The notes under the pieces: generated by a model
What the model was told of the DNA's origin: nothing
Seen by the model: the letters and a program-made list of their open reading frames with translations, nothing else
Database searches by the model: none
Source: Isoetes taiwanensis
Taxonomy: Eukaryota > Streptophyta > Lycopodiopsida > Isoetales > Isoetaceae
NCBI GenBank assembly: GCA_021234155.1
Contig: JAJEKV010000006.1
Coordinates: 8,709,003 to 8,773,002, forward strand
DNA: 64,000 nt
Direction of reading: 5' to 3'
Part shown: positions 37,307-60,113 of the stretch, piece by piece
How the letters are laid out: each line of letters starts with the position of its first letter
How positions within the stretch are numbered: the stretch's first letter is position 1
Program-made: the position numbers and the translations under genes

Positions 37307-38869
37307 TGGCGTTCGGCCAAAGATTATCGGTCCCCTGGGCGTATCTTTGTGCGCCGCTCATCACGCAGCATACCGCCCACTCCGACCGACGTGTACGCCA
37401 ACGGATAGCCAGGTAAGTAGCCCTAGGGGCAACTTGCTAGGAGTGTTCATATATTATTAATGTGCACATGTGCACATTAATGTGGGCACACCTTTCCATG
37501 TTGGCATATTTTGCCACCTAGCCATTAAAGGCAAGTTGGGCCTTTCCAATTATCCCACATGCCAAAATGGGTAATTGGAAACCCTAGCCTAAACCCCATG
37601 TCTATTTAGGGTAGGAAAACCCTAGCTTGCTAGTTTTTAGTCCTTAGGGTTTTAGAGCTTCGGTTTTGGCTGCCCCAGGAGCCAAAACAGCCTCCCGAGC
37701 AGCCGCCTGCGAATTGGCCATCGGTTCCCACAATTGATCAGCCCAAAGAGGATGGTTGAACTTCGGTCGAGGAGGAAACCACTCAAGGATCAGGTATTTG
37801 GTCAATTTAATAGCTTAAACCGTCTTCTAGTCATAGAATCAGTAGGTTTAGACTATTAAATTGCCCATAGCAGCTATCTAGATCTTAGATCTCGGACACT
37901 AACTAAAGAACCTAACTCTATGATTAGATCTAGTTCTTTAGTTCTTCTGTGATGTATTTGGATGATGTATCTCTGTGAACTCCTTGTATTGGGAAGGGGG
38001 GTAGAGGCCCTAAAGCTTGTAGTTGATGCTCCTAGAGTAGCCTCTCTAGCACACTGTAGATTCGGCCTGTGCACAAGAACCACACACCGTGGGTGAAGGG
38101 GCCAGGGCCGGCTTAGAAGGAGGTTAGGTGTTCGACTCTTGAACGATCCCTATGGTGTGTTAGTGCTACCGGGGATCATTGTGACTAGGTCTAATGGCTT
38201 ACCACTGAGTGCGGGTAAGGCATGGGCTCGACACCCGTGAAGTGGTGTACACTTTCCAGTGGGTTCAGTCGAATACGGGCAGTGGCCCTCTAGTCACCTT
38301 GAGTCAGCATGTAGACCTCTGGAGGGAGTGATCCCTACCTGCCCCATCGGAACTGGGGAGATGAAACCCAGGAATAGCCCTTTTGGCTATGCATCCCGGA
38401 GGAGCTGATCGTCCCCCAACACTTTTCACCTACTGCAAAGTGTGCACAGGGGAGGGCGGATGGAGTGGACAACCCTAGGCCATGTTCATATGCCAGCCAA
38501 CTCCATTGCCATGAATTAAATGCGCAATGAACTCTGGAGACCCAAGCCGTCAGTCACTCCCTTGAGTCTGAGCCTTGGGTAGGATTCCCTATGTGATGTG
38601 CTGACCATTGTCTATGCAGATGTTGATATACCACCCCTCTGGGTGGATGGAGGATTCTGTTGGTACTGACATGTATGTTTACGCTTCCGCAGCTAGGTAG
38701 GCCCTGAGGGAGACAGGGTAGAATGACACCTTCACTCTTCCCACTGGGACTCGTTACGGGTGCAGTGATATGTGGAGGGCCCTGTATCAGCATGGAGCTG
38801 GTGTGGGGGAAGAACTCCTGTTTGTATACGGTGAGAGCACCGCACCCCCACGGTAGGGGGGCGTCCGCA
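37307..38869 (+). repeat. 5' LTR of the chromovirus
   Basis: This pairs with 61191-62747. Stretches such as 37781-38085 and 61658-61962 are identical over 305 bp, while short GC-rich patches differ heavily. The right boundary is set by CA followed after one base by the primer site TGGTATCAGAGC. The left boundary is set by comparison with the 3' LTR, whose first bases are TGTGACGATCC. A 69-codon minus-strand frame occurs identically in both LTRs but has no known domain. Confidence 0.88.
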
Positions 38870-38870
38870 G

Positions 38871-38882
38871 TGGTATCAGAGC
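38871..38882 (+). promoter_or_regulatory. Primer binding site, tRNA-iMet type
   Basis: TGGTATCAGAGC lies one base after the 5' LTR and is the standard plant LTR-retrotransposon site complementary to the 3' end of initiator tRNA-Met, where minus-strand DNA synthesis starts. Confidence 0.93.
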
Positions 38883-39140: not shown

Positions 39141-39258
39141 GAATAAGAACACCAAAACATGATGAATTTGAGAAAAATAATGTGGTAAGGCTAATTCTAA
39201 GGTAGGAATTAGTTAGAATAGCATGTTTTAATTACCTAAAAACCCTAGAAATGTATGA

Positions 39259-39539: not shown

Positions 39540-40789
39540 ATGGCCCGAACCAAACAGACCGCAAGGAAGCGTCGCCCAGGCGAAACCACCAGCGCCACTG
39601 AGGCGGAGATCATTCGGAAGATGCTTCGTGAGAGGCTCGCGAGAGGGGGTCGTTCGCCTTCGGACGAGGAGCAAGACACGTCCGATCTGATTGATGTCTT
39701 CAACCAGCAGGCGGAGCAGGACGAGGCCACATCACCGAACTCCATGGACGAGGAGACGAGGGAGGTGTATGAAGAAATAGAGCGGGAGATCCGGCAGCAG
39801 GAACAAGCAGAAGACCATTCAGACGCACCCACAGAGATCCTCGAGCAGGATGAGCAAGTGACAGGTCTGGAGCCAGCAGAGGTAGCAGACCTTAGAAGGT
39901 TCATCAGAAAGTACAGAAGAGAAGGGAAGACAAAAAGAGGAAAAGGGAGGAAGAGGAACAAAAGGCAGCAGAAGAGAAGAAGAAGGCGAAAGGGAAGTTC
40001 GTGGCTGGCATAAGGAGAACGGCGGGACCGCCTCGCCAAGGAAGAGGCCGAACCCCAAGATTGTCATCAAGGAGCGGCAACCCGACGAACCCCCAAACCC
40101 CTCCGACGACTCTTCTGAGGAGGACTTCAACCCTAATGCTGCAGGTGGAAGCTCTTCCAAGCACCCAGCGACGAAGAAGGGGAAGTACCCGAAAGCAGCC
40201 GACCCTGAAAGCAACCCCAAAGAAGATCAAGTGCGTAAGGCCCCCGAAAATACCCGGCATGGGATAGAAAGAAGCAACCACGACCTGCCCGGGAAGCCTA
40301 CGTCACCGGATGAGGTGAAGATTTACGAGAGGAAGATGAGGGAGCACGAGGCCTACATGAAGAAATGGGAGGCCTACAACAAATATTATGAAGAAAACGG
40401 GGTCAGTTCATCGAGGGAGGGCGACCAACGGCAAAGAAACCTTAAAGCCGCCACCAATCGGGCCAAAGGTTCCCAAGCCACCACCCAAGAAGAAAGTCGA
40501 TAGGAAGGAGGTGGAGAGAAGAGCGCTAAGGGAGATTAGACACTTCCAACAAGCAGCCTACGGACTTCTAATCCCCCGCCCCTTCGCCTTTCGGTTGAGC
40601 GAGAAGTGATGCAGCCTCTGAGCAATTTTAGAGTCACTTGACGAGGCGCGGGCAATGCAAGAGGCGGTTGAGGCAAAAATAGTGCAACATTTTGAGGATT
40701 CAACAGCTTGCACTATTCACGCCAAGCGGGTAACCCTAATGCGGCAAGACATGAGTCTTGCGAGCCGTATAAAGGGAGAACGCCCTTAG
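39540..40789 (+). CDS. Histone H3-like protein encoded inside the retrotransposon (frameshifted as read)
   Basis: ATG 39540 opens [10 protein letters not shown], identical to the first ten codons of canonical histone H3 (H3 K4 and K9 context), then diverges. A charged region of about 320 residues follows: acidic Glu/Asp-rich blocks, then a Lys/Arg/Glu-rich coiled-coil-like stretch, then Pro/Ser/Lys-rich linker sequence in shifting frames. At 40523 the H3 histone fold begins. Helix N reads [18 protein letters not shown] (H3: ALREIRRYQKSTELLI). Helix 1 follows with REVMQPLS. Helix 2 (from 40643) has [15 protein letters not shown], then [14 protein letters not shown] (H3: CAIHAKRVTIMPKD), and helix 3 ends RIKGERP before TAG 40787 (H3: RIRGERA). 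LLIP and VTLMR resemble CENH3 usage, while FED.. and the end resemble canonical H3. At least four single-base frame changes occur (near 39895, 40015, 40500-40600 and 40640). The gene is on the same strand as gag-pol, between primer site and gag, with its own TATA box. The H3 identity is sequence-evident; its function is unknown. Confidence 0.87.
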
Positions 40790-40932
40790 AACTTGTTTTG
40801 TAAATAATTAAAAATTTTGTAATATAGAGCAGTTTTGTGTACCTTGATTGCATAAACTTGATTAATTAGAGCAAATTAATAAGTTTTAGCTTTTATTTCG
40901 TGAAATAGGACATTTGCAAGCCGAGAGACATG
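40790..40932. other. 3' flank of the H3-like gene
   Basis: The sequence after the stop is AT-rich, with TTGTAAATAATTAAAAATTTTGTAATATAG, plausible as a plant polyadenylation region ending the H3-like transcript before the next hairpin pair. Confidence 0.4.
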
Positions 40933-41000
40933 ATGTCTCCCAACTTTACCGGGTCGCAAAACTAACTTTTAGTTTTGAAGCCAGGCTAAGTCGTGAGACC
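40933..41000. repeat. Hairpin repeat copy 3, upstream of the second gene
   Basis: GTCTCCCAACTTTACCGGGTCGCAAAACTAA pairs with TTAGTTTTGAAGCCAGGCTAAGTCGTGAGAC; the inner 9-bp stem CAAAACTAA/TTAGTTTTG is perfect. The core words match copies 1, 2 and 4. Confidence 0.8.
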
Positions 41001-41129
41001 TAAACAAACTTGACCAAAACAGCTCCAAATCGGCCAAATAAGGGGTCAATTCTGCACCGATTTGATGAGCCCATCACCCTTACACCATCGGTTTACCCAA
41101 ATTAGACAACTTTTGATCGAAATGAGATC

Positions 41130-41203
41130 GATGTCTCCGCATTTCGCGCTGGTCAAAGAACTAAAAGTTAGTTTTTTGGCGAGGCGCAAAGTCGCGAGAG
41201 ACC
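41130..41203. repeat. Hairpin repeat copy 4, upstream of the second gene
   Basis: The left arm GATGTCTCCGCATTTCGCGC pairs with GCGCAAAGTCGCGAGAGACC, with inner AACTAA/TTAGTT. It lies about 190 bp before the TATA box at 41391. Confidence 0.75.
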
Positions 41204-41390
41204 TCTTACCATTTCTTCACCAGACTTGTCAAAGTCACCTTCAACCTATTGCATAGCATCTTTTAGGTAATCTAGCCTTGTTCAAGCATCCCACATAGTC
41301 CTCAAACTCCCATTTTGACCTCGGATAGGCTAGAATTACCCAACCCTAGGAAATTTTCAAGTCATCCAAAATTAGGGTTTTCCCCTTTTC

Positions 41391-41397
41391 TATAAAT
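41391..41397 (+). promoter_or_regulatory. TATA box of the second internal gene
   Basis: CTATAAATAGACCCCTCATTT matches the H3-like gene's promoter context. The next ATG in good context is at 41512, giving a 5' UTR near 90 nt. Confidence 0.6.
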
Positions 41398-41511
41398 AGA
41401 CCCCTCATTTCTCGGATAGCACCCTACAAATCGCATACCCCTTCTAGCCAATTTCTCAACTCCTCCGGCGCTCTTGCAACCGTTTGTTACCCTCTTACTC
41501 GCAATTAATCA

Positions 41512-42905
41512 ATGGCAACTTCGATTTCCACCAGATGGTACAGCGCCCGGCTCATATGTCTTGAGGGGACGTCGACCAGAATCTTCCGGATCTTCGGGAA
41601 GGAGGTAGATGTCCAAGCAACCTTGCACCGCAGCGACCCGGCTTATAGTAGAGTCTTGACTGAAGTTCCAAGCTAGGGTAGAACCAGCTTAGTGCAACTC
41701 CCCCTTGTGTAGGCTATTTTGTTCCTAGACAGGTCCCTGAGCAAGATTAGACGATGTCCCTAACATCGCCAAATACCTCACAAACAAAGCGCCACAAGCG
41801 CCTTTGAGCCAATGGTCCTAATCGTCAATAGGACCAAGTACTTCTCTTTCAACACCGCCTTGGCAATCTTTCTTACCCAATTGCGAGAACACCGTGGGGA
41901 AACCTCCATTCCCCCATGGACGTGGACCCATTAGCCATAGCAAAGAGAGCAACGGCTCCTCACCACAGTATGAACAGAGGGCGGGAAGGGAAGGAAGAAG
42001 ACTTAAGAACAGAATCAAGAAGAGGAAGACTATGTCGAGCTCGACCCAAATGGAGGAGCGCGACAAGCAGCAAGAGTGGCAAGACTTCAAAGAAGCCGGC
42101 AGACTCTCAGTCGCGCCACCCTCGGTTAGGCATCACAAGCCTAGCTCCCATTATTGTCGAAGGTGAGGAGTTTACGCTCTAAGCGACATTCAAAACCTCC
42201 CGAGGGGAAAGGGAGTACCGACCAAGAGTTGCTACACCAACTCCGAAAGAATGGACTTGGGCGACTTCATCGTCAGGAGAATCGACTTCCCCTCCAAGTA
42301 AGGGAAGCCGACACTTACACGGGAGAGTTTACCTCCGATATCCAAGCCTCTGACAACATCGGCCGGTTATGGAGGCGGACAAGGCCGAGAACAAGCTACC
42401 GACGGAGGAAGAGTTCCTTGCTCTTGAGAAGCAGATGGGGATCCGCTATGCGACCTCAAACATCCTAACGGCAAGCTCGTCCCGCAGAACCTCCCGGGGA
42501 GAGGGCCGGCCCGATTCGACCTCGGGAGGGCTTCAAAGAATAGAGACTACAGGGAGCTCACCACGGTGGAGGTTGATGACTTGAGAAGCGCATACGTAGC
42601 CGGATACCGAAGTGGTCGAGGACCCGATCCTAGCGAACTCAAATCACTACGGTATTACACCGCCACTGGCGATGGATGGAAGAATAGCGGTTATCCACCG
42701 CAAGTTCACCCCTGGGGCGAGGAAGGAGTATCGCTGGTGATTGCACTCTCGGATTCGCCGCATCATTGCGGTTACCCTTAACACCGAAGTATGCAATCAC
42801 GGTGAAGAGAGCGGTAGCACTCGACGCCTTCGACTTCGCCATACCTTACAAAAGGCAAAAGCAAGACTGCCGGTGACAGCAGACTTATACCCCCCACGCA
42901 TGAAT
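41512..42905 (+). pseudogene. Second internal retrotransposon gene, unknown family, frameshifted
   Basis: ATG 41512 opens MATSISTRW and reads 50-odd codons before a stop. Coding-like text resumes in other frames: a basic Lys/Arg/Glu-rich stretch (41900-42080), a block with IIVEGEEFTL and STDQELLHQLRKNGLG (42145-42255), a block with EVDDLRSAYVAGYRSGRGPD (42569-42640), and a C-terminal block with PKYAITVKRAVALDAFDFAI ending near 42905. I do not recognise the family. The region sits between the H3-like gene and gag, on the same strand, with its own promoter and hairpins. The last block faintly recalls the C-terminal helix of histone H4 (TVTAMDVVYALKRQ), but the preceding H4 fold is not seen, so no histone call is made. 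Confidence 0.5.
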
Positions 42906-43134
42906 AGAAGATTTGGCAAGAGCATTACAAGGTGGATCTCCACCAATGTCGCTTAGGAACTTGGGCCATTCATTAGGAACGGCCCAAGTGAAAAAAAGTT
43001 CTGGAGGACAATCCATCTTACCGGCACAACCGGGAATGATTAGCCGTAGTTGTAATTTCTCAGATTAGCGTAATATAAATATAAATATAATATTCTCTTG
43101 CACTATAAATGTTTTGTTGATATATTTTGTGTCC

Positions 43135-44470
43135 CCCCCTAACCATGCCAACAAACATAAACAATCCAAGAAAACAAGGAAAACTAACCATGTAGCTATG
43201 AACCGCTTGTGTATGCGACTAGAGGCCTAAAGCCGGAGGAGAACGACAAGCTACTTGGAACTTATAGAGGAACAGAGTCCGCCAGCCACGCCGGACAAGG
43301 AACCCTTGAAGAATTTGGACAAATGACCCGGAAGAAGAAATATCGCAAAATGAGGACGGACCTCTCGAACGGATAAAGGCTTTGCTAGCCGCTGCAAAGC
43401 GGGAGCGGTTCGGTGGGTAACGCTCAACTGCCGCAAGCATCATTTCGGAGAAACGGTAGAGACAGGAAAGAGCAACAAGAGAGGAAGGTCCCAGTTGGAC
43501 TCCTCGATTCAAGCTCGATTCGGACTCGGCCCGGGAGGAAGAAGAAGAGCGTAACCAAGACCCAAACACGATGGAAGGCGAGGAACGCCCGGACGGACGA
43601 CAAAGGGACACAAGAACCTCGACTACCGGGGAGAAGAAGGTAGATTACGCGACCGGGCAATGTATGGAAGGCCCGAATCTGAACAGTTCGGGGAGAACAG
43701 TGTCGATTATTAAAGCGAGAGGCATGGCTGGACCTAAATGAGTGAATGCGGCAATGCTTATGGCATGAAGGATAAGGACAAAGGTAGAGTGGCAAATGAC
43801 CAACTTGAAAGGAGCGCCACGAATTTGGTGGAAAGGTTATGCAAAGGCACATGGCTTAAGCGGGGATGCTTGCGGGTTCAAGAAGTTTGCTAAAGCCTTC
43901 AAAGCGCCATTACGTTCCAAAGAGAGCACAAGTCCAAGATGATCACGCCCATTCTGACGGTTTGCGGCAAGGCAACAAGTCGAGACACGAAATACACCTG
44001 AGGAATTTATGAGGCTAAGGTCAGATGTGCCAAAGTTAGGTGAGAAGCATGCGGTGGAAAGCTACATTGAAGGTCCGAATGAGGACATCCGCAAGTTTGT
44101 AAGGGCAATAAACCCTAGAACAAGATGTCGAGGCGGAGTCCAAGGCAATAAGCTTGCAAGGAACAGGGACCTCGGAATAGCGGCGAGGCGGCAGCGATAT
44201 TACCAAGATAAAGGCAAGGCGTGGCCGGTTTTAGCGGAGGAGGACCGGCCGGGACCCAAATTAGAGCCCCATATAGTGGCAATCAAGGGAAGCGGCGGGG
44301 AGAAGAAGCGGAGTGTCTTTCAAAGACAAACGAGAAGGGTCAAACTACTCCAAAGCGGTCGCGATCCTTTCTGCGAGCCATGCCCAAGGAAAAGAGAGCG
44401 AGAGTGCATAGAAAAAGCGGCTTTGCTTTCATTGCTTCCAGCCGAAAGCCATAGGGCAAAATGAACCCCA
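43135..44470 (+). pseudogene. gag: Chromovirus gag (capsid and zinc knuckle), frameshifted
   Basis: After a basic, charged leader (43250-43640) the capsid region is readable across frames: GNAYGMK, then WQMTNLKGAPRIWW-type wording (43790-43830), and an intact 151-codon frame from 44009 with RLRSDVPKLGEKHAVESYIE and EDIRKFVRAINPR, typical of retrotransposon gag helices. A decayed CCHC-type knuckle (CFHCFQ followed by IGQN) lies near 44425-44460, just before the stop. Gag forms the virus-like particle and binds RNA. The many single-base frame changes may be sequence errors, given the young LTRs. Confidence 0.7.
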
Positions 44471-46569: not shown

Positions 46570-46752
46570 TTAAAGTGGGACAAATCTTGAATTTTGGAAC
46601 TCGGACTGAAAATGGGACTCACACACCATAAAAGAAATTTCTGAATTGATTGCTTGAATAGAATTACACATGACACACATAGAATTGGGTTACTTGTTTT
46701 CCTCATAAATTTTACAAACCAGTAGTTGAGAAAGTTTTCAAACTTCTCAATA

Positions 46753-49399
46753 TTATGCACCCTCATACAATGATATAGCATGGAGGTTGCTCATGGCCTT
46801 GTCCATCTCCTTTCTTGGGATCTTGTGTGTGTTGTCTTTTGCAATGTGAGAACTTGGATATGACCATACCACACACTCCACCAATTCCCTCCTTTGAGGG
46901 TCGGCATAATTTGGCCTCCACTTCTTCTCCCAAAGCCGATCGGTGTATTGCTCCTTCAAGTTGCCCTTCTTGTGCCTCCCAATGGGCTCCCAATATTGAA
47001 TTTGGAATCGGGGCGCAAACTCCTCTCCATCGGGCATAGTGGTGGTCACATCGAGAGAGTGCCACCCCTAACCATATTGGGCCGGTCCTCATCATCGGGC
47101 CTTACTAGCACAAAGTATCCTTCCTTGATGTCCTCAAAGGGATCCCACTCGGGAAGATCAAACCACTTCGGCTTTGAGGCCTTACTTCCCACAAACCACT
47201 TGGGACCCAAGTGAGCATTCTTAGACGTGCTTGCACCTTGAGAACCCTCCCATCTTGACTCGGCAGAACCCGTCTCTTAGCTCCCTCCCACATGGGTACA
47301 TTCGGTTTCTAAGCATGTCACAACTTTCTCGATGACTTGATTAGGGAGTCCATTTGATTTTTCTTAAGAGTGGAGGTGTGCTTTCCATTTCGAACATCAT
47401 CCCAAAGGCGTTATGTAATCCTTGATGCCCTTCACCCGGTTGGCTAGAGTCTTTGACTGTCTTGAAGGGAGGTAGTGGTTTTGGCTACCCTTTAGGAATG
47501 AGAACTTCACCAAAGAAGCACCCCTTTGCCACAACTTCGATACCTTGTGCACAGGCATCCACAACTTGTCACTGGTCTCCACTTATATTGCATGATTGGT
47601 ATTCCATCCCTAACCCAAAACTTGAATTGAAGTGGCTTTGTGTGTCTGTCAACCTGGTCCTTGCCATCTAGCAAGTATCCTTCTACAAATGATTTCCAAT
47701 CGCAACCTCATCCATCAAGAAAGCCATTGGGTTGGGGTCAATGCAGCTCTCAAACACATCCATTAGTTCGGGGAGAATGGTCACGTTTTTCTCTCTTGAG
47801 CTTGGTGGAGAAAGTTCAAAGAATCCATCTATATCATCATGCGTATGCCCAACCATCATGAATCCCACTTTCACAACTTTGAATACTCCCACTGCCAAAG
47901 TATGACATTGCCCCAAACATCCATCTATTCTTGTTTTCTTTCCAACGGTTGTCCAAGCGAACACATAGCTCCTCGGTGATTTCTCAAGTAAGGGGAAATC
48001 ATCCCAAGTCCTCCTTGATTCACTAGACACCTTGGATGTGAGCTTTTTATCGCCTTTGGTAACAAAGCGGTTGATCATCCATCAAAGCCTCAAAAATGGG
48101 TCTTTGAAGGGAATACCTCCTCCCTTCTATCGTTCCTTTCTCTAGTGTTCTCAAGCACTTGAAAATAGAGCTCACATGGAAGTTTGGATCATCTCTCCAT
48201 AGATCAAGCACAAAATGACCATATGTTCCAGTTCCATGACCATGTGTTAATACACCCGGACTTACTTTCATCACGAAAAGTTTTGACAACGCTTGGGTAA
48301 AGGATCTAGCTTTGGCAAGAAAGTCTTGTGTTGGTCCATCTTATCATGAATTATACACAAAAATTTGTCCTACCGCATCTCGAGGAAAATGTTCTCCACT
48401 TTGCCAATACAACTGTCTACATGATATTTGGTCCCTTTGGTGATCTGCAAATTGCTCCCTAATTGCCATTCTTTCTTTTCTATTGCGGTTGATGCAAGTG
48501 TATCCTTGAGTTGAATGCAAGTGTTGCACTTTGAGAATGGCATGTGTTGTAGGACACTCACGTCCAGAAGTGAGTGCTCCATAACTTGCTGAAATGTGAT
48601 TGAGAAAGAGGCCTACCTCCGGTAGTTTCTAGGATGGAGTTGACCTCCTTAAGGCACTCCTTTTGGATATAGTGTTGTGGCAACACTCTTTTGCACCACT
48701 ACGCACAGGTGCTCGTTCTGCTCGACTTGTGGGGCATAGATTGAGACATGTATCTCACAAAGCTCTCTAAGAGCTGCAATGGCCTTTAGAGTATTTGCTC
48801 TAGGTTTCAAAGTGAGTGCATTACCATGTTGGAACAAAGTGTGCCCTTTTCTAACCTGCTCCCAAGATATCACGTAAAATGAAGACTTGCTCACCCCAAG
48901 AATCCATCTCAATGCTCTCATACATACCTTCATTCCCCTCAATTGATATAGCGGTAGTCTGTGTTTTCATCATAGCCGGAATTCCTACACAAGGAGTAAA
49001 TGAAATTAATCCTATCTTTTTGAAGTTGTCCAATGTATTGGGACCTTATCCAAGACGAGGTCATCCACATTGTAATGCACCTGTGCAATCTAGGTTGCAA
49101 CACTCTTGTCCCCTAATTGCCTCGGGTTTTCTTTGGTTGGTGCCATACTTTCCATCCTTTCTAAATATTTGTCACTTCTAGGCCTCTTGGGCACCTTTGG
49201 CTGCCTTTTATGAAAGACATAAGCGTCTCTTCCTTGTGATCAAAGGATGCTCATCGACCACCAAATCTTCCACATGGCCTTGGGTGGGCCTTGGGGTGTG
49301 TAGTTCAGTGGGGCATTCTAGAGTATCACCATTCTTGTGTGTAATAAATCTAATTGGCCATCTCAACTGAGCTTGGGACTCCGGCACCACTGAGCACAC
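46753..49399 (-). pseudogene. DUF7869-like (GHTHxDID) transposase-like gene, frameshifted
   Basis: Minus-strand frames read in order as a family I know from non-seed plants, algae and invertebrates as DUF7869-type proteins: FSKCNTCIQLKDTLAST (about 48530), KMDQHKTFLPKL (about 48330), GTYGHFVLDLWRDDPNFHVS (48157-48220) with SSIFKCLRTLE, and KVGFMMVGHTHDDIDGFF (about 47810-47865), then C-terminal blocks to a stop at 46753. The KCxxCxxLK, DxxDQxKTxLP and GHTHxDID motifs are the family signatures (from memory). The spaced Asp/His residues suggest an RNase-H-like fold, which is inference. At least six frame changes are present. Its position next to one end of the nested element makes it the best candidate for the element's own mobility gene. 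Confidence 0.65.
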
Positions 49400-49449
49400 A
49401 ATGCAATCACTAGAGCTTCCCTAGGACATGATAGTATCAACCCGATAAG

Positions 49450-50880
49450 AAGCTTCACAATGCCAACTCCAAGATGTTCATCTCCCAACCTCTCATCATT
49501 CACACTATCAAATGGATCAAGCTGCGGTTATTATGCCCTCTGCAAATACCCGTGCAGTTTGCAAGGGTGCAACAAAAGGCAACCCATCTTCCTCCATTGG
49601 AGCCTAGGGCAATGGCCTCCTTTGGACTTCCACGGCTCCATTTTACTCATCTCACATGCTCCCCGAATGAAAAAGCTCACATTAAAACCATATAGCCCCA
49701 AACACCACAAATATGACCATATGAACCATATAAAACCATACAAACATATTAAATATAACCATATTAAATCATACAACCATATTAACTAAAATCATATAAC
49801 CATATTAAAGCATACAACCACACTCATTCTAAACCATATGTGAACATTGTAACCATATATACCATTGATACTATTCAACCATTGAAACCTTATTAAATAC
49901 ATAAGATAACATATATAAATATATAACCTACCCTTTCATATCTTGGCATGGCCCGCGTGGCGCCTCTTGAGAGGTTTGAAACCGTTACCCGTCGGCTAAA
50001 TCCTTTGCGTCATGGAGGGCATGGCCCACACGTGACAATGGTTTTATATTATTGCACTTTTACGAGGGTTCGGGGGTGCGGCCCGATTAACTTGCACCCT
50101 CTTCCTCTCCCCCACCATTCTTCCTCCCCTGTTTTCTCGATCACTCTTGAGCTCCTGTTTTCCTTAAAGCGCCCGCTTTTTCGATAAAGCGATCGATCGA
50201 GCAACCGAACGATTCCAAGGCCATCTTATGACAAAGCAGCTTGGTCGACGGATCGGGGCGCTTCCAGCAGCCAGAAGTTCTCGCCTTGATTCATTGTTCG
50301 GCGGGCATTACCTTTGAGAAGAAAGTGAGGCCCTTTTTAGTCTTTGCTTTTAGTTTTACGTAAGTCGTTTAGTGCATTTTTACTTATATTACATTTGTTA
50401 GAGGCTCTTATTAATCCACGATACAATTTACTGCCCGACAAATCCTTATTCACGCTTTGCCAACGACTATACCCACATGGAAGCGAACTTCGGAAGCCTC
50501 CTCCTCATCCAACAAATCTTCGGGTATGTTTTTGTAATATCATACCCTTTTTAATCTCATTTTTTCTATCTTGTTCTCCAACCATTCTGCATTTGTTCTC
50601 CAATTTGTTCTCTTTTTCTCATTAATCTTTGTATTGTTTTCTGTTTTTTGTGATCTTTTTCTTGCTTGTGGTTGAATTGAATACATTGTATGCGGGCACA
50701 AGTGAGAATAGTGGTTAGAGTAGTAGCAAACAACCAAGATAGAAATCATCGGTAGACCTGGTGTTAGGAAGTAAGATATTGCGAGCATTAATGTAACATA
50801 ACTAGGAATGTCTTTCTCCCGCAAGAACTAAGAATAGGAATTGCTTCCGCGGAATCTCCATTTCTAACTCACGGCAAATC
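49450..50880. other. Non-coding part of the nested element with an AT microsatellite-like tract
   Basis: At 49690-49890 a tract built from ACCATATTAAA/AACCATATGA words (20 or so irregular copies) is evident. 49950-50230 is GC-richer and may hold a promoter for the minus-strand gene. No coding frame with family features is present. Confidence 0.5.
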
Positions 50881-50924
50881 CAACTGCGGGGAGACATGCG
50901 AGAAGGGAGTGGCGAGTTGAGAAT

Positions 50925-52345
50925 ACTTCACTTTGCCAGCAGTCCGGGAAGTACAGGCCTTCTTCTCGACTCCCGAGTCGAGAACTTCTCTCTTCAGGCG
51001 GTAGAAGAGGGAGTGTACACTGGACCATTGGCGGAGTTGAGGGATTCTCGACTTCATGACCGAATTGCACGGCTACCCAATGTCTTCACATTCTTTAGAA
51101 CCCTGCTGCAGCCTTCTCGACTTCGTGAGTCGAGAATGTGATACTACCAATGGCTCTTTGTGCGGTCGCGGAGTGCCTCCACCCACCCGAGCCACTCTCC
51201 TTCAACCATGCTCGCCGAATATTGCGAAGAGGACCGGCTCCGGCCGGGTGGAGGCCTCGGCGACTAACCAGCGAGTCTTTGGCGGCTTTCTCGACTTCGT
51301 GAGTCGAAAAAAACGCTCTAGTGCACTCTAGAGCTGGCTGCGGAGGCGATCTCAACCACTCTCCTTCTATCTTCCTCGGACATTGCGAGAGGGAAGTGGT
51401 TTTGGCCGTCTGCAGCGCCAACTCTTAGCAACCCAATTCTCTGTGTGTGGTCGCAAAGGCCTCTACCCAATCAAAGACCGTCTCCTTGAACCATCTTCGT
51501 CGAATATTGCGGGGATGGGCTCGATTGGTGGAGGCCTCGGCGACTAACCACGAGTTGTGCGGCTGCTTTCGGCTGGTGAGTCGGCTTGAAACTCTAGTGC
51601 ACTCTAGTGACTCTGGCACAGCAGGCAGTCTTAAACACTCTCCTTCTATCTTCCTCGGACATTGCGAAGGGGGAAGTGTTTTTTGACCGCCTGCGGGCCA
51701 ACTCTTAGCAACCCAATTCTCACATGTGTGGTCGCAGATGGCCTCTACCCAATCAAAGACCGTCTCCTTGAACCTTCTTAAAATTGAATATTGCGAAGGG
51801 GATGGGCTCGATTGGGTGGAGGCCTCTACAACCAACCACTTGAAACCACGAGCTTGTTGTATGCATTCTCGGCTCGCTGAGTGGGAATGCCTCACCCAAC
51901 CGCACTCCATGTGTACTAACCGGAGTTCGGATGGCCAAGGCATTCTCGACTTGCGGTCGAGAATGTAGACGAGAAGCCAAGCATTCTCGACTCGCAAGTC
52001 GAGAATCCCTTAACCGACCAATTCTCCTGCATTAATGCGGTAGCGATTGGCCTCGACCCGGTCGAGTCACTCTCCTTGAACCATCTTCGTCCGAATATTG
52101 CGAAGGGGAGGGACTCGGGGGGTGGGAGGCCTTTACAACTAACCACGCGGGGAAACCACGAGGAAGCCAAGGCTTGCATTCTCTACAAGTCTTGCACTTT
52201 CTATTCTCTGTTTTTAGTCCCAAGTGCCTCTAGCACATGCGAGCCACTCTCCTTGAACCATCTTCCTCGAATATTGCGAAGAGGAGTGGTTGGACAGTGG
52301 AGGCCCCTCCGACTAACTACAAGAGGATGCATTTGAACCGCATCT
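50925..52345. repeat. Diverged tandem array with embedded CTCGAC palindromes
   Basis: A block of the form CACTCTCCTTGAACCATCTTCxTCGAATATTGCGAAG..GTGGAGGCCT..GACTAACCAC occurs at least five times (starting near 51190, 51480, 51765, 52067 and 52246) at 180-300-bp spacing. Between blocks sit imperfect palindromes such as TTCTCGACTCCCGAGTCGAGAA (near 50962), TTCTCGACTTCGTGAGTCGAGAA (51114) and ATTCTCGACTCGCAAGTCGAGAAT (51984). Such arrays recall subterminal transposase-binding repeats, but these are internal. Confidence 0.75.
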
Positions 52346-52548
52346 CACGGGCCTTAGTCCTAGCACGATCTATGTACAACATTCCAAGTAAACAGTCCAT
52401 GAAAAACACACCTAAAAGCGGGCTGTTCTTTACCCCGATCAATGTTTCCTTGCCGAGCATCTCTCAACCTAGAGAGTAAATCATCTCGAAGCTGAAAAAT
52501 CTTTGGACAAGGAAACACTTGAATCCGTCGAGCTTATCAGCAGTTCCA

Positions 52549-52917
52549 TTATTTAAACACATCGGCATGTTCTACAAGCGAAATAACATAGGCATCTCTG
52601 AAACTCACCTCTTCCGCGTAATTCCTTGGGCCCTTTGTATCCACGGATCCCATGACCTCACCCGAGTCTTTGCTTCTTACATCCGGTCTCTTCAAGAGTG
52701 TATTAGCATCTAATACTTTCAGATCAACTGCGATTCTCGCGTATCCCCTTTCCATGGCGCCCTTGATGTAGAGTTCGATTGTCGGCGGCTCCTCTCCGCT
52801 TCCTACCTTAGCTCCGTGCTCATCGATCAAATCAAGCTGCTTGCAATAGGGCCAGCGGTCGGGGAAAACACACATATGCAAGGCATTTGTTAGCGGCTTA
52901 CAGCGTCGCGGCGCCAT
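52549..52917 (-). CDS. 122-codon minus-strand frame of unknown function
   Basis: An open frame starts MAPRRCKPLTNALHMCVF and contains PTIELYIKGAMERGYARIAV. Composition is protein-like, but I recognise no domain. It lies between the tandem array and the plus-strand cargo frames, with no partner on its strand nearby. It could be a piece of a larger spliced or frameshifted gene. Confidence 0.3.
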   Translation of the reverse strand: MAPRRCKPLTNALHMCVFPDRWPYCKQLDLIDEHGAKVGSGEEPPTIELYIKGAMERGYARIAVDLKVLDANTLLKRPDVRSKDSGEVMGSVDTKGPRNYAEEVSFRDAYVISLVEHADVFK

Positions 52918-53049
52918 TCCGGAAGTCGCTAACGGTCGATGATCCCCTCCGACCTCGAGTTCCCCAATGCGCGGGGAAGATAAACTTCACGCTCCACTCA
53001 CTTAGTCCCTTGATGTGATTAAATTTGAAATAGTGTTTGGGGGGCTAAA

Positions 53050-54490
53050 GCCGGCCGTCTTTGTACCCTTAGCCCGCTTTTTTTCATAAATGATTGCATG
53101 TCCTTAACTTCAAATTAAAAGAACACGCCCGATCTTTTTTTACATGCAGTCCTAAAACTCACAATGCTTGCGGAGGAAACTTAATTTCTGAGTGGTCAGA
53201 AGAGGATGAGAGGGCATACACACATGACTCCGTCCAAGAAGCGGGCCGGAGGATGCTTACGCCAAGCGGCAAGAAGAAGAAGACAAACACCCGGGTAAGC
53301 TCGAGGTTTTCTTTTGTCGGAATACTTTAAGCGATCCATCCTTTCTTCTTGCGGCATTCACCTCGGACTCACTTGGTGATCAGCGGCGAACTCCATTCTT
53401 AGTCATCGAGGGGCTGGAGCGAGCTTCTTGAAGCAATGGCCGGTTCTTGGTGGTATGTCGAGGTATCGACAAGTGGGAAGGAGAAAGATCATTTCTACAC
53501 CAAAGGGACAAGAAGAGCTCCGGAGACAAGTACAAGAAAATCGGTGTTGTGCTCTCGTCTGCGCCCGGTTAAAGCATTTAACACTACATGTCGAGGGCTG
53601 CCGGAAAGAGTAAGTTCTATCGCCGCGAAAAAATTAGCGGTTTCAAATTATTCTCACTCTTCCATGAGCAAGGCTAAGGGCACCCGAAAAAAGGGCGCCT
53701 TTAAATTGTCGAGAACCTTGGGTGGAAGGATGCGGAAGGGATGAAGGAGGCGGAACCCTAACATCCGGGGAGCTTGGTATGGAGATTTCGAGTCGGGGAA
53801 AAGCTGTTCAATACGGGGAGCTTCACTTCTCTTGTCTTTGAAGACTCTACAACACTCTGCGGTGGGGAATGTTGTGGTTCATACACAAAAAGTCCACCAA
53901 AAACAAAGATGGGGATGATGACACCACCACGGGAGGAATCGGATGACCGAAGGAGACGAAGATATGGTCGACTCCCCAAACCTCGATCCGGATGATCGAT
54001 CAGGATTTCACAGAGAGGGGCCGCGAAAATGGAAGCGTCTAGCTTCGGTATTATCCGTTGGGAATATCACACACAAACTGCTGCTTCTTTGGACATTAGG
54101 CGGCTGAAGGTTTGCACGGGAGATGCCGTCTTGTTCAACCACGGGAATTTAATCCAGGCACACATCTTTGGAGATTCTCGAACCGATGGTGCGACATCTG
54201 TTCGCATCCAATGCCTGCGGATGTCATACCTTTTAGCGAGTCGGCAATGAGTTGTTCACCGGAAGTCCGAGGAAGATCTGAAGGGAAAAGAAGTCCGGTT
54301 ACGGGTTGTAGGCGGTCGGCGATTCGATGAGGCGGCTCAAGTATTGCGAGCGGAGAAGGAGGTGCCGCAAAGGATCAAGGATAGATATGCCAGCGAGAGT
54401 CGCGAGTTCTTTCGGTGGAGCGCCCGAACTTAACCGGCGGGCGGCATTAGCCACGCTGCGGAACACAATAGCGGCGAGTGCCCGCCTCAC
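53050..54490 (+). pseudogene. Cargo region with possible BAH-like segment
   Basis: Several plus-strand frames (53094-53330, 53436-53744, 53774-53995, 54029-54330) succeed one another with protein-like composition. One contains LKVCTGDAVLFNHGNLIQAHIF and, further on in another frame, NELFTGSPRKSEEDLKGKEV. The 'GDxVLxxxxx..I' strand followed by 'NELF..' and '..GK..V' loosely follows the bromo-adjacent-homology (BAH) pattern. Similarity is weak and the frames are broken, so the BAH idea is tentative. Confidence 0.3.
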
Positions 54491-54524
54491 GTAAGGTAAA
54501 TAACTCTCTGAATCTTTCCATTCT

Positions 54525-54900
54525 CACTTCGCTGAAGTCGAAAGCCCCGCCATCCTAACATTTGCCGATTATCACTTTGGGGTTTCGACTCGCGAAATCG
54601 AAAGCCGAAGTAACCTGAGAAAATCAAAGGATGTGGAGCTTTCGACTTCGCGAGTCGAAAACCCTTAGCCGATAAAAAGAAAATTAGACATTCAAGGGAC
54701 TTTCTCGACTTCGCGGTCGAAAAGCCTACCATCTAACATTTGCCCGATTATCATCGGAGTTTCGACTTCGCGAGTCGAAAAGCGAAGTATCTGAAAAATC
54801 AAAGGATCTAGAGCTTTCTCATTCGCGAGTCGAAAAACCGAAAGTAAAAGAAAATTAGACATTCAAAGGGACTTTCTCGACTCGCGAGTCGAAAACCGAA
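54525..54900. repeat. Tandem duplication (about 180 bp x 2) carrying palindromes
   Basis: The order CTAACATTTGCC, GATTATCA, CGACT..CGAAA, CTGAGAAAATCAAAGGAT, GAGCTTTC..GTCGAAAA, AAAGAAAATTAGACATTCAA, GGGACTTTCTCGAC occurs twice in succession (about 54545-54720 and 54730-54895). Each unit holds three palindromes of the type TTTCGACTTCGCGAGTCGAAA. The frame before and after is coding-like; this stretch is not. Confidence 0.8.
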
Positions 54901-54909
54901 CTACTATTC

Positions 54910-56540
54910 TTGTTTATTCCGGGTGTTTGTATATACTTTCATGCTCGACATTGGTACATTATCCGAATGCAGCCCCTATCTGACGGATCATACCGCGCTA
55001 GGCAACGATGGGAAAGCATTGGGTTGTCCTCGGCCCTAAAGGAAACGTGGGCTCCCTCGGATAAGTGGAAGACCTTTGAAACTATCTTGGATATGTTCTG
55101 CTGGAGGGACGAGGAAGATGGCGAGGGAGAGGAAGAAGAGGAGAAGAAGAAGAGAACACCAAGGAAAGGCGGGGAGTCTCTCTCGGACCAATATGACCTC
55201 AATGGAGAAAATGGACTGACATATGGGCTCAATGGACAAGAGGCAAGGCTGAAGGACAGCAATGGAGAATTTCCAAGCGGGCGGACCCCAAGTTGTTTGA
55301 CAAGCGGTTCATGAAGAGGATCTGAGGGGCCTCACGCGGACAAAAAACGCTTGACCTACAAGGCAAAATCTTGGAGGGAACAATCCTGGCGAGGAAGACC
55401 AGGAGTTCTAAATTGCGGGGCGCAAAAGATTATGCCCACGATCCTAAAAGCGGCGGCGTCGCGTTAGAAGAAGGCATCCGCGAGGTTACGCAGCGTTGCA
55501 TCTAATGAATACCATGATTTTGATTATTACAAGGAAAAGGCTGCCCTTGATGAGGAAGACATGAAGGAATTGAACCGTCTATGTCAACCCTACATCAACA
55601 CCAAGGCTGAAGCGTAGCGTCAAAACCCTTCCTTTCCCCTGAGCGTGCTATGGCAATTCGAAAAGGAAGCTTGGATTCGGGGGTGGTCCCATTTAAAAGT
55701 GACGATAGCTCCCCCCATTTACGGTTACTTTGGGACACAAGGGATTTGGTGATGCAGGCCTTTTTGACCCGTGGCACTATTTTCCATCAATATGATCGAA
55801 GACCCCACCCTTTTTATGACAAAGCTGACATAGAAGCGGTGGTACAAGGCGTGTCACGGACATGACCGACTGGATACTTTCGGTTTCCTTGTCTTTTTTG
55901 CATGCGGGCAATCAAACAACTTCTTTGTCTCCCAATGGGCGGTGATATTAACTTCACCAACAAGATCATGCACTCCATATCACGAACTTGATCATGAGTG
56001 CGGACTTGGCTTGCCCGAAGGCACCAAGCTTTGCCAACATAGTTTTGGTTTTGATTTCAAGATCGGTGGTCGACTGGATAAGTGGTGGTCTAGCGAGCAT
56101 CATTATCTCGACAAGTTCATGATCTCTCAAGAGCGAGATGGAACCACGGAAGGGGGGGTTTATGGAGGATGTTCCATCGATGGACAAGGTCAGCAAAGAT
56201 GGTGCGACCGGTCCTATACATAGAATTCCTATCCGGCCAAGAGTTATCAAGTACTTCATAACCAGCTTGGTGGGGAAGATCAAATTGTATCGCGAGTGGT
56301 ACATGAATGGCCTGTTCTCTCGAGGGGGCTATCTTTGTATGGAATGAAACCTATATCCGTGGTTGGAAATAAGGACATGGTTGAAACCATTCAGTCATAC
56401 ACGGATCTGCTTCATGAGCATTTCAAGGGAGGAAGACAAATGGAAGCGATAAAGGCGGCGAGGGCGAGGGAGACAAACGGCGGAGGCGAGGATGTCGAAG
56501 GTTTGGACGAGAATCTTTGCCGAAAACATTATTGAAAACA
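54910..56540 (+). pseudogene. Cargo region of unknown family
   Basis: Plus-strand frames at 54910-55314, 55580-55865, 55942-56223 and 56296-56535 read as one decayed protein. It has an acidic Glu/Lys-rich stretch (EEDGEGEEEEEKKKRTP), a block with EKEAWIRGW and PPIYGYFGTQG, a block with KLYREWYMNGLFSRGGYLC, and a charged C-terminus. I do not recognise it. It lies between two palindrome clusters, which may mark introns or gene borders. Confidence 0.35.
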
Positions 56541-56569
56541 CGAGATTGAGGTGAGTTTACTTTGCTCTA

Positions 56570-56665
56570 TCGGTGTTTCTCGACTTCAGCGAGTCGAGAA
56601 AACTCGTTCCTTTCAATACCTTTTCTTTTCATTCTCGACTTCGCGAGTCGAAAAACTCGTTCCTT
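56570..56665. repeat. Palindrome pair
   Basis: TTTCTCGACTTCAGCGAGTCGAGAAA (near 56577) and TTCTCGACTTCGCGAGTCGAAAAA (near 56634) lie 57 bp apart; each is followed by ACTCGTTCCTTT, so the unit is duplicated. Confidence 0.75.
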
Positions 56666-56799
56666 TTCGCCGGATGTCATCATTTCGAGGGAATTCCAGC
56701 TCAACGAGTCGGGATCATTGTCATTTGGCGGCGGTTCCGCGGCGCCGAGGAGAATGAGAATGAAAATCTGAGCAAGACAACGCTCCACGACCGAAAGAA

Positions 56800-57530
56800 C
56801 ACGAAAAGATAATGATCCCGCATTTGGATCCCGATGAACGGAAATATGGTCGAGAGCCAAACTCCAAGCGGGATCCGGTGGTCCCCACCAAGCTTGTAAT
56901 ATTTGGCGTCAATGGAGTATTAGGCTGCGGTATACCACGACAAAGACGTCCCGAGATTAACACCTCATGAGATCCCAATGAAAGCGAGCATAAAATAGTG
57001 TATCCGAGGCCTAGAGCTAAGGAAATTATTGGCTGGTGCACGCACGGGATTTGAAGTGGGCATATGGTCTTGTATGGCAAAGAAAAATATTGTCAATGTT
57101 CTTGGTGTTCTCGGCATTTCAGTTTTGAAGTTCAAGTTCGTTTGGAGAAACGAAAGGGTCGAGCATGTGAAGGACCTCGATCCGGCCATCACAAAGGGAA
57201 GCCTATAATGGTGAAAAGGCTGGGCCGGGGTTTATGAGCAATTCGGGACTATGGCAAACACAACAACGCTGATCATAGGCGACTCCGCCTACAAGTGCTA
57301 TCATAGCAGCGCAAAAATACAATCATTGCTAAGCCATATCGACCGAAGAATATGAGACGGATAGGTGGTTGTCCTTGGGACTCATGTCTGTCTTGGCGGA
57401 ATCCCTCTTTGCCATTCTTGTCGCCCGATGTGCTTACGAACTATCCGAGCCTCACGGAACCCGATCGAGAGAGCAAGCCGATCATGAAAGCTATGGACGA
57501 CAAATACTTTGGTGAACAAGAAGAGTGACC
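56800..57530 (+). pseudogene. FCP1/NIF-like HAD phosphatase relic
   Basis: Plus-strand frames carry TKLVIFGVNGVLGCG (from 56887), the strand-1 motif of FCP1/NIF-type HAD phosphatases, in which LxxDxNGxL is usual. The nucleophile Asp is Gly here (GGC instead of GAC/GAT). Then comes GFEVGIWSCMAKKNI (57050-57095), the counterpart of the 'VVIWSSMxxxN' motif II region; FKFVWRNERVEHVKDLDP; and TTLIIGDSAYKCYHS (57262-57306), the counterpart of 'TLLIDDSPYK'. Two or three frame changes and stops interrupt it. The family dephosphorylates the RNA polymerase II tail or related substrates. It is probably a host gene fragment captured by the nested element. The missing nucleophile argues against activity unless it is a sequence error. 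Confidence 0.65.
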
Positions 57531-57624
57531 CTTGCTTTTCGATAGTCAAATTGTGTGAATATTGTAATCAAAGCGTGAACACATGTATTGACCATTTTGT
57601 AATGAATATACTTGTATATTGAGT

Positions 57625-57920
57625 TTTGATGCCTTTCTCGACTCACGAGTGAGAAAGGCATGCTTGTCTGTTGATGAAACCATTTGTATGTTTGATTGTG
57701 TCACTAGATGCAGCCACAATCTATTATGATAATGCTTGTACATTGGGTTTCACGGGCCTTTCTCGACTCGCGAGTCGAGAAAAGGCATCTTTAATTTTCT
57801 CGTTGACAAAAGCATTTGTATGCTTCCGTGTGTGTGATTGGATGCAACCATATTCTAATGAGTATGGTTGTACTTTGACTTTACGGGCCTTTCTGATTTC
57901 GAGTCGAGAAAGACACTACT
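57625..57920. repeat. Palindrome cluster
   Basis: Three copies about 125 bp apart are present: CCTTTCTCGACTCACGAGTGAGAAAGG (near 57632), GCCTTTCTCGACTCGCGAGTCGAGAAAAGGC (57756-57786, a near-perfect 31-bp palindrome) and CCTTTCTGATTTCGAGTCGAGAAAG (near 57886). Sequence between copies is itself repeated (AAAGCATTTGTATG / TGATTGxxTGCAxCCA), so this is a three-unit tandem array with a palindrome per unit. Confidence 0.8.
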
Positions 57921-57959
57921 CCCCGTCATTGGATGCGGTTGTATGGAATGAATGTTCTC

Positions 57960-58800
57960 CGTTGTAATTTGATTTCAACGTTCTTTTCTTCGTTTTGACT
58001 AATGACACCGTAATTGTTAATCATACTCTCCTTGCTCCGGTGGTTCGGCCACGGATCCGACACCAGCGCATCCCCGCTCGAGCATCCACGAGAGACCGCT
58101 CCAGGCGGCACGGATCCCGCTCAAGGCGGAAGAAATACCGTTAACAGCACGATTCGATCCACGCTACACTCTTGCCCGGCCTTTGGGACAAGGTTGCTCG
58201 CGAATTCGAGAGGTTGCTCGCTACACCACAGGGATAAAGAACGGCGAAGAACAAAGAGAGACAGTCCAACAAGCTCAAAGCATCTTGCAAGCATTGCATA
58301 ACATCCACGGAGGGTGGGGAAGGAGCATATTCGATGAAAGGCTGCGGGAGGCGAAAGTGGAGAAGTCGGGTGGGCAGGGCGGCGGTAGCTCGAGGCACCT
58401 CCACGTGAGGCATTCCACACTCTTCGGGTTGCCCCAAGGCTTCGAGGCGGCATGAAGAAGCGCCACAAGTTAATCCCCTAAGGTGGACCACCTACCAAGA
58501 TGATGTAATGTAGTGACAAAGCCAAGACCGCCATGGTCTCTGCGTCCGATGTAAAAATACATTGTATCTGCTCAATTTATTAATAAAAATTCTTTTTCAA
58601 CTAGATCTTTGGTTTCAAACTTTAATGAATTTCCTTTGTTTTTGGTTTGCATTGTTTTTGTTCTCGACTTCATGAACACAGGAAAAGCTGGAGCAAAGCT
58701 TCGGATTCGAGTTTTATTCAAAAATTCGAATTTAGGATAGTTTTCGGTCGGGGGTGCTACTTTTATGTAAAATTACCGGGGTTCGAAAAAAAATGGGAAT
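57960..58800. other. Right arm of the nested element
   Basis: A 90-codon plus-strand frame (58183-58455) contains EEQRETVQQAQSILQALHNI and may be the end of a cargo protein; the family is unknown. From 58480 to 58800 the sequence is AT-rich with one more CTCGACTTCATGAAC half-palindrome (58672) and no coding sense. Confidence 0.4.
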
Positions 58801-58824
58801 GGAATGAGTCCCACTTCAATTAAA

Positions 58825-60113
58825 TCGACTTCCTTGCCAACGGATGTGGATTTCGGGGAAGTATGGGCAAAGCCTCTCTAAGGAGGCTAGAAACGGATAA
58901 AGAGCGGGAGGCCTTCAAGCATTATAAGAAGGAAGGCAACCTGTTATACCATAAGAACAAGTTGTGCGTGCCGAATCATCGGTGTAAGGAAGTTGATCCT
59001 CCATGACACGCTACAACAGCAATAGCCGGCCATGCGGGATTCATGAAAACATATTTCAAAGTCTTGGCAGCAAACTATTATTGGCTAGGAATGAAGAAGC
59101 AAATAGCTTCGCTACATCAAGGAATGTCGGCTATGCCAGTGAGGCGAAGGCGGAGGCAGCTTGAATTCGAGGGCATTAGAGCCATTAGCGGTGCCAAACG
59201 CTAAGTGGGAGGTAATCGGCATGGATTTCATCCGCAGGACTCCCAAAAACGGCGAGAGGCAAGGATGCCTTGATGGTAGTGGTCGACAAGTTGTCGAAGA
59301 TGGCACATTTTGTGCCTTGCGGGACCACGAATCTGACTATGGATCTGACAAAGCTCTTCACCAAAGAGATCTTGAGGCTTCATGGCATGCCAAGGGAGAT
59401 TATCTCCGAGCGGGGATCCAAAGTTCATGAGTGCCTTTTGGCAAGACCTCTTTCGCGGCGATTCGGACCAAGCTATCCATGAGCACGGCGTATCATCCTC
59501 GGACGGATGGCGAATGGAGCGGACCAACGAGGATTTAGAGGACATGCTTTCTGAAACTATGTCCGGAATAAGCAAGGTATGTGGGAAGAATTTATTCACT
59601 TGGTGGAGTTTGCATACAATAGCACCAAGCAGGAATCATCCCAAATGTGCGCCGTTTATGATCAATTCACGGCTATCGATTACTAACTCGGACACTTGGC
59701 ACAACCCGTGTCAAAAGTGGAAGTTTCCACGGCCGGATGTTGGCTGATATGCAGCAGCTTGTGGAAGAGGTTCGAGGGTATCTGCTAGCGAAAGAAGAAG
59801 TCGACAAAAGAGCATCGTAGACAAGCATCGAGCGATAAGGGAGTTCAAAGTTGGAGATGATGTTTGGCTCAAGATCAAGGTGAAGCGGCGGCTTCGAGTT
59901 GGGAATTGCAAGAAGCTTGCTCCAAAGGTTAGGCGGACCTTCGGAATAGTCGAGAGAGTAGGTAATCAAGCCTACAAGCTAGACTTGCCGGACACCCTAA
60001 AGATTCATAAGGTCTTCCATGTGAGTTTGTTGAAGAAGCACACTCCAAATCCGGGCGAAGTCTTGGACACTCCAACGTTGTTGGAAATGACAGAGGAGCA
60101 ACGGTGGAAATAG
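58825..60113 (+). pseudogene. pol: Chromovirus integrase, frameshifted, altered catalytic triad as read
   Basis: Text resumes with DVDFGEVWAKPL right of the insertion. The HHCC-type zinc region is readable at 58990-59140 (AIAGHAGFMKTYF, YYWLGMKKQIAS). The core starts with KWEVIGMDFI (first catalytic Asp, near 59222); then VVVDKLSKMAHFVPCGTTNL, FTKEILRLHGMPREIIS (59280-59400). The second catalytic position reads SERGSK instead of the usual SDRGSK. The Glu site falls in ERTNEDLEDML near 59540. The C-terminal domain reads KLAPKVRRTFGIVERVGNQA and HKVFHVSLLKKH (59908-60045). Frame changes occur as elsewhere in this element. Confidence 0.87.

Follow-up and report, generated by a model that had tools for sequence, protein, structure and literature searches.

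Giant DNA viruses encode histones and a polydnavirus encodes H4. Like the element described here, they are genetic parasites with a core histone, but they are DNA viruses whereas ours is a reverse-transcribing element. The closest precedent that we found among mobile elements is fungal: a hAT DNA transposon of Pyrenophora tritici-repentis carries, and thereby multiplies, an H3-like gene named H3L (Manning et al. 2013, PMC3538342). According to the part of that report available to us, H3L fully matches neither H3 nor CenH3 and has insertions in its tail, the transposon has terminal inverted repeats and 26 very similar copies in the reference genome, and the authors suspect drift (PMC3538342). 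On the retrotransposon side, group II chromoviruses (Tekay, Galadriel) place RNase H ahead of integrase and close the integrase with a chromodomain, and the accessible text about them mentions no histone gene (PMC3350952). Additional open frames are described in other plant LTR elements, where a host-type gene has become a fixed part of a Ty3/gypsy lineage and has spread to its subfamilies (PMC7264820, PMC9289625, available parts); orchid LTR elements, for example, carry an RNA demethylase domain (PMC9289625). A screen of 121 angiosperm genomes, with lycophytes outside its coverage, reported 15 extra LTR-element domains, and no histone is named in the accessible text (PMC9289625).

Here we describe a quillwort element that shares the domain order of group II chromoviruses and has an extra gene before pol. 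On the best reading, a large quillwort retrotransposon family carries a selectively maintained H3 gene, and we put the probability that this gene belongs to a Ty3/gypsy chromovirus and is under selection at about 0.97. In contrast to the fungal hAT, this is an LTR retrotransposon found at hundreds of listed places, with diverged subfamilies of low dN/dS, and its H3 keeps the tail tip about 320 residues before the fold. No histone encoded by an LTR retrotransposon was found in the open-access full texts searched, a coverage outside which most subscription papers and preprints fall. Within that literature the original prediction was right that no described LTR family has its own H3, the fungal DNA transposon (PMC3538342) being a precedent of another kind. 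The word "histone" is also absent from the main text of the Isoetes genome paper, as far as it was accessible (PMC8566536).

Results

An H3 gene inside a Ty3/gypsy element

The window, that is, the whole 64,000-nucleotide stretch of Isoetes taiwanensis DNA analysed, holds the gene on the plus strand at 39540..40789, where a tail tip, a charged extension, a conserved helical part, an H3 fold and a TAG follow one another, frame-broken as assembled. The original prediction placed the first ten residues of H3 at 39540 and an H3 fold further along the same strand. Reading confirmed the former exactly (39540..39569, +), and the latter was recovered by tblastn on the window with an Arabidopsis H3 query, which matched 40490-40783 at 2.3e-15 and the stretch starting with the tail at 6.7e-4, the next match in the window having an E of 1.4. 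The profile check suggested for the fold region was significant: a Pfam search identified the fold (40490..40786, +, followed by the TAG) as core histone PF00125 (E 1.5e-9), and a PDB search returned H3 chains, with H3.1 as the best match (1.2e-14). A single open frame in this copy was not borne out. By reading, the path runs in frame 0 to about 39905, then in frames 2, 1 (open to 40500) and 2 again, and two in-frame stops sit within the fold. The long extra sequence that had been called an N-terminal extension is present, but it is better termed an insertion between tail tip and fold.

The gene lies between two LTRs whose aligned parts, at 37364..38842 (5′, +) and 61245..62725 (3′, +), pair with 94% identity over 1507 columns; the 5′ LTR probably extends to just before the primer site. 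The primer binding site TGGTATCAGAGC (38871..38882, +), which we take to be of the tRNA-Met type, is an exact match 669 bases before the ATG. Plant Ty3/gypsy chromoviruses have a primer site of this type. Downstream of the H3 gene, the element body at 40833..43135 (+), the gag/protease region by position alone, is common to other copies and is 83-86% identical to the five compared (blastn). It is followed on the same strand by the RNase H of reverse transcriptase (RT_RNaseH PF17917, 46252..46416, +, 3.2e-15), the C-terminal SH3 of integrase (SH3_Tf2-1 PF24626, 59853..60041, +, 3.8e-18) and the integrase chromodomain (PF00385, 60124..60270, +, 2.2e-8), and the Pfam search of the window also gave weak matches, each below its cut-off, to Integrase_H2C2 (59007-59108, 0.0037) and to the reverse transcriptase domain (0.047). 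The order RNase H, integrase, terminal chromodomain in the window is that of Ty3/gypsy chromoviruses. LTRs, primer site, RNase H, SH3 and chromodomain together bear out the claim of a Ty3/gypsy element with the H3 gene in its own orientation. The more precise placement between primer site and gag stood in part: the gene comes after the primer site (38871) and before pol, and the position of gag was only partly shown. No Pfam match to gag was obtained at 41-51 kb of the window or, for three other copies, within 2.4 kb after the H3 gene, the frames being broken in both. A hAT transposon was set aside as the identity of the element, since LTRs and a Ty3-type pol are present, no inverted pair of at least 60 bases was found at 34.5-64 kb (shorter terminal repeats would escape) and a Pfam search of the plus strand between 41 and 61 kb gave nothing of hAT type.

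The element had also been called young. Differences within the LTR pair form 21 clusters separated by identical runs of up to 307, 261 and 181 columns, a weak sign alone because 359 of 20000 random placements equal them. However, 64 of the 92 columns that differ are no more than two bases from a CHG site, and more than two bases away from such sites only 4 substitutions are left in 942 ungapped columns. This scarcity supports a young element despite the raw identity of 94%.

The H3 gene recurs across the genome at a nearly fixed place in the element

In the genome searched (1,658,258,908 bases, 1110 contigs), the exact 30-base tail start occurred at 60 places, compared with none for a reversed control, and the first 40 in list order, window excluded, were read. 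A primer site of the tRNA-Met type, sought from -760 to -560 while allowing two errors at most, was present at -662 to -692 from the ATG in all 40, and it was exact upstream of each of the three diverged copies examined. The fold was found in 39 of the 40 copies, at +911 to +1266 from the ATG in 37, from +1484 in one and from +3382 in another. When all synonymous codon variants were allowed, the tail tip occurred at 841 places, host H3 genes included (reversed control, 0). Searches with the fold itself gave, for the first query, a best 150 of 9263 candidates whose E values are at most 4.1e-47 and whose identity is 80-100%, 30 of them with frames of at least 400 codons; for a second query taken from a diverged copy, 42 of the best 150 of 9207 candidates had such frames, and some places are common to both lists.

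Linkage to pol was counted between 330 distinct listed H3 loci and the best 150 of 13575 candidates for the integrase SH3 region of the window. In 61 listed pairs the integrase followed the H3 on the same strand at no more than 25 kb, and in 35 of these the distance from fold to integrase was 6.9-7.2 kb. The reversed order was seen in 3 of 64 same-strand listed pairs, and opposite-strand pairs were absent. A listed H3 thus lay upstream of 61 of the 150 listed integrase loci, or 66 after adding further loci read. At 16 integrase loci without a listed H3, picked mostly for long frames, the fold was found in seven of the 700-base stretches taken at the expected place; in one of the nine misses (C1019) the H3 lies just outside the stretch fetched. 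The stretches without a fold indicate that some integrase copies may lack the H3 gene. Other family members had been proposed as a check, and they exist, with the exact tail at 60 places, the fold in 39 of 40 copies read and hundreds of listed loci; this recurrence and the near-fixed integrase spacing among listed pairs argue against a one-off chimera. That the gene always keeps its position in the element is upheld by the primer site upstream in 40 of 40 copies and is tempered by the integrase loci that possibly have no gene.

In the window copy the H3 tail lies 20.3 kb from the integrase, compared with the 6.9-7.2 kb of those 35 listed pairs, and 12.6 kb separate its RNase H from the integrase zinc region. 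From this spacing we infer a later nested insertion that splits pol, with an approximate extent of 46600..58900 and no strand assigned. A minus-strand DUF7869 domain lies inside it (47704-47892, −, 2e-11); its MVGHTHDDID motif presumably links it to KDZ-type DNA transposons.

Copies with broken frames disagree mainly at CHG sites

None of the 40 near copies has one frame from ATG to fold as assembled, and the longest from the ATG reaches 233 codons. In another frame, the copy L039 stays open for 422 codons, starting shortly ahead of the ATG and reaching the fold end. In 36 comparisons with L039, copies disagreed most at CTG (0.43), CGG (0.32) and CAG (0.29), compared with 0.03-0.17 at other trinucleotides (next highest 0.165; CCG 0.13), while CG sites outside CHG disagreed at 0.118 and the rest at 0.088. 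Altogether, 17% of positions disagree within a base of CHG sites and 6% elsewhere, and the CHG-centred disagreements include indels. The available part of the genome paper describes an assembly of 1658.30 Mb (204 scaffolds and 909 unplaced contigs, 1113 in all) for which R9.4.1 nanopore reads were the main source, polished with Illumina data and combined with optical maps (PMC8566536). Given the CHG-centred disagreement and this type of read, the broken frames look like base-calling errors at methylated CHG sites of a young element. True misassembly or decay was set aside as their cause, because the disagreement is concentrated at CHG; a literature search on nanopore CHG errors found nothing. 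Errors of this kind could hide other element genes in the repeats of this assembly.

Intact copies encode a single protein under purifying selection

Ten diverged copies, picked for long frames and spanning 80-98% fold identity, were read. In eight of them tail to fold end forms a single frame of 421-451 codons, a few running slightly past. The tail tip is exact in five and carries one change in three (IARTK, MAQTK, MARTKET), the copy L050 opening with I instead of M. The product of the intact copies is thus a single protein, about 420-450 residues long, that starts with the tail tip, continues through a charged extension some 320 residues in length and closes with a complete H3 fold. Pooled Nei-Gojobori estimates over the 28 pairs of these eight copies, whose choice for long frames biases toward low values, gave dN/dS of 0.069 for the fold, 0.109 for the tail, 0.095 for the helical part before the fold, 0.270 for the extension, 0.300 for a proline-rich linker and 0.189 for the whole, at a dS of 1.06 for the whole gene and 0.74 for the tail. 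Purifying selection, proposed as a check on the gene, was thus found in fold and tail of the copies measured, with the caveat that they were picked for long frames.

Near copies were compared by codon position with L039 over clean stretches (36 copies and the window; L028, L029 and L035, with the fold absent or displaced, were excluded). Fold mismatches at positions 1, 2 and 3 numbered 0/278, 0/352 and 13/316, and those of the extension 8/1102, 11/1119 and 88/1200. The helical part, so called from reading the sequence by eye, ends in YYEENRV in the copy L049; it gave no Pfam match and is kept almost like the fold.

The fold is a divergent H3 outside the CENH3 clade

The unrepaired element frame matched the Histone family PF00125 at 2.3e-28 (Pfam), and a PDB search showed 60 of 171 matched sequences, all of them H3 kinds, the best at 7.3e-27. 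Folds of this type (A-type, 11 rows) are 55-61% identical to plant H3.1 and H3.3 in a gapless alignment, so that loop 1 has the canonical length. Residues 106, 110, 113, 114, 116-118, 123, 126 and 130 show no change across the 11 A-type folds or in L078, a copy of a second type described below. We take this set to serve H3-H3 and H3-H4 contact and to form the face toward H4 and chaperones, and its retention makes pairing with H4 plausible. R63 is replaced by P in all 11 A-type folds and R129 varies, both being positions that we assume to matter for nucleosomes. The tail tip retains K4 and K9, and the H3 tail beyond the first ten residues, with residues such as S10, is lost and replaced by other sequence. 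The charged extension gave no Pfam match apart from the fold.

A-type folds form one clade in two trees (support 100/99 and 98/99) and fall outside the CENH3 clade (7 rows, 99/97). The likeness to CENH3 lies in a divergent H3 with a long variable N-terminal part and in the shared HFQ, LLIP and TLMR. In contrast, the element H3 has the canonical loop 1 length and the canonical tail tip and stands apart in the tree, which speaks against a CENH3 identity. Compared with public proteins, the fold alone retrieved 20 H3/CENH3-type proteins at 42-53% identity, and no relative with the fold was seen among 79 proteins of length 228-726 at E ≤ 0.001. Pieces of the whole protein gave at least 1136 matches at E ≤ 0.1 among 8000 candidates scored, the best five of the 120 listed being H3 fused in tandem. 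Within these length limits and those of shared words, no relative of the whole protein was found in public proteins, nor was one found in the viral contigs scanned. Two short H3-like proteins from assembled reads (P0002 and P0003) stand nearest to the element folds among the tree rows, a placement with weak support (85/85 and 69/85 in two trees).

A second lineage carries an H3 fold

A search with canonical H3 gave 15 host-like loci with 96-98% identity, followed by 135 further loci with 71-86%. We termed the latter B-type on the reading of one of them, L078 (C1061:1000160-1001640), and not all need share the type; 51 of the 135 have frames of at least 400 codons. L078 starts with MAITKSAPD, without the exact tail tip, and continues in an unrelated extension of about 320 residues. 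Its fold and plant H3.1 have different residues at 14 of 89 positions (Pfam Histone, 5.8e-41), and outside the fold its matches to the A-type are weak, with E values of 0.13 or worse. An integrase SH3 (3e-9) and a chromodomain (7.3e-8) lie about 5.0-5.3 kb downstream of the fold. Between the best 150 of 10252 candidates for this chromodomain and the 135 loci, 23 pairs had the chromodomain as a downstream neighbour on the same strand within 25 kb, 17 of them at 7.0-7.5 kb; among the listed matches there were no pairs with the chromodomain upstream and none on opposite strands. No integrase among the 150 listed for the first lineage was found within 40 kb of any of the 135 loci. In the tree L078 groups with plant H3.3 (support 94/92), and forcing A and B together costs 18 log-likelihood units at a p-AU of 0.051, with B represented by one sequence. 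A single capture for both H3 types is therefore disfavoured on these alignments, though not rejected at that value. With an unrelated extension and no exact tip in the copy read, the second lineage suggests that the fold is the common part.

The chromodomain read from each lineage lacks a cage aromatic

Group I chromodomains bind methylated H3K9 through an aromatic cage (Y24, W45, Y48), while the partner of group II chromodomains is not known, according to the available text (PMC3350952). By eye, the tryptophan is kept and the third cage aromatic lost (KWKHL) both in the chromodomain of the window and in the one sequence taken from the second lineage, which also has no first aromatic. A group I chromodomain was rejected on the third aromatic, missing in one sequence of each lineage, and by these residues the element chromodomain is in the group II state. 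The element H3 is a candidate partner supplied by the element itself, which makes the question of what such a chromodomain binds a testable one.

Discussion

Core histones are seen as a property of the host, and here reverse-transcribing elements carry an H3 that is apparently kept by selection. Judging from sequence, genomic parasites appear to make their own chromatin protein. The original prediction was right to treat its role (packaging, marking or mimicry) as inference. We lean slightly towards an action through histone-type H3-H4 assembly, and consider an action on the chromatin of the element in particular somewhat less likely than not. The H3 protein would be translated as the first open frame of the element RNA and carried into the nucleus by its basic stretches, where the conserved fold would pair with host H4. 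The resulting H3-H4 units, with their long charged arm, would enter nucleosomes on element DNA or nearby chromatin. Arm and transplanted tail tip might then change the way in which the host's silencing machinery recognises or preserves element chromatin, and silencing altered in this way would favour its expression or insertion.

Other roles are conceivable. The fold might serve as a tether that holds the DNA-integrase complex to H4, to histone chaperones or to sites of replication-coupled assembly, aiding nuclear entry or target choice. The gene does sit in an integrase-bearing element, the residues that we take to face H4 and chaperones are kept and an adaptor could well consist of a fold with a long charged arm; yet the tail tip, which a tether does not need, is kept at a dN/dS of 0.11, and we regard this role as rather unlikely. 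Alternatively, the tail tip may act as a decoy: ARTKQTARK could soak up or misdirect the host methyltransferases and readers of H3K9 or H3K4 and weaken silencing. Plant CHG methylation depends on H3K9 methylation, and the CHG-centred disagreement among copies suggests that the element is heavily CHG methylated. Of the H3 tail, it is the tip that was kept, and it is coded by many synonymous codons, although the 841 places include host genes. However, a decoy needs no H3 fold, which is the most constrained part of the protein, the one B-type protein read lacks the exact tip and three of eight intact frames carry a change in it, and we consider this explanation improbable.

Two further explanations are less likely still. 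Pickup of host genes by retrotransposons is known (PMC7264820, available part), and drift is suspected for the H3-like gene of the fungal hAT (PMC3538342), so a captured H3 might be a mere passenger copied along without function. Low dN/dS in tail and fold at a dS of about 1, fold changes among near copies at third positions only in clean stretches, and the presence of an H3 fold in two lineages make this very hard to accept. A host H3 variant family or a misassembly, which the broken frame of the window copy might suggest, is scarcely credible: the primer site precedes the gene in 40 of 40 copies, an integrase follows on the same strand in 61 listed pairs and in none on the opposite strand, and the 15 host-like H3 loci stand apart, being 96-98% identical to plant H3.

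Within the histone-type reading, a more ambitious version is conceivable as a long shot, namely that element H3 nucleosomes form on the element's own copies and are read by its cage-less chromodomain. If true, such self-made chromatin would let a retrotransposon mark, shield or find its own insertions, and two chromovirus lineages would have reached it separately, each with its own H3 and arm. Aside from its role in the element, a natural H3 with the tail tip about 320 residues from the fold is useful for asking what the position of the tail does.

Sequences around the gene and the element

A motif of about 70 bases lies upstream of the H3 gene in the window (39255-39327). In the five elements compared, similar copies follow the gene closely, at about 1.4-1.7 kb from the ATG. 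Outside the element, an open frame of 885 residues (31431-34088, −), which we take to be receptor-kinase-like with a lectin-like front part, lies about 3 kb ahead of the 5′ LTR. A 234-codon open frame (63288-63989, +) that closely follows the 3′ LTR may belong to another element, with this one nested inside it.
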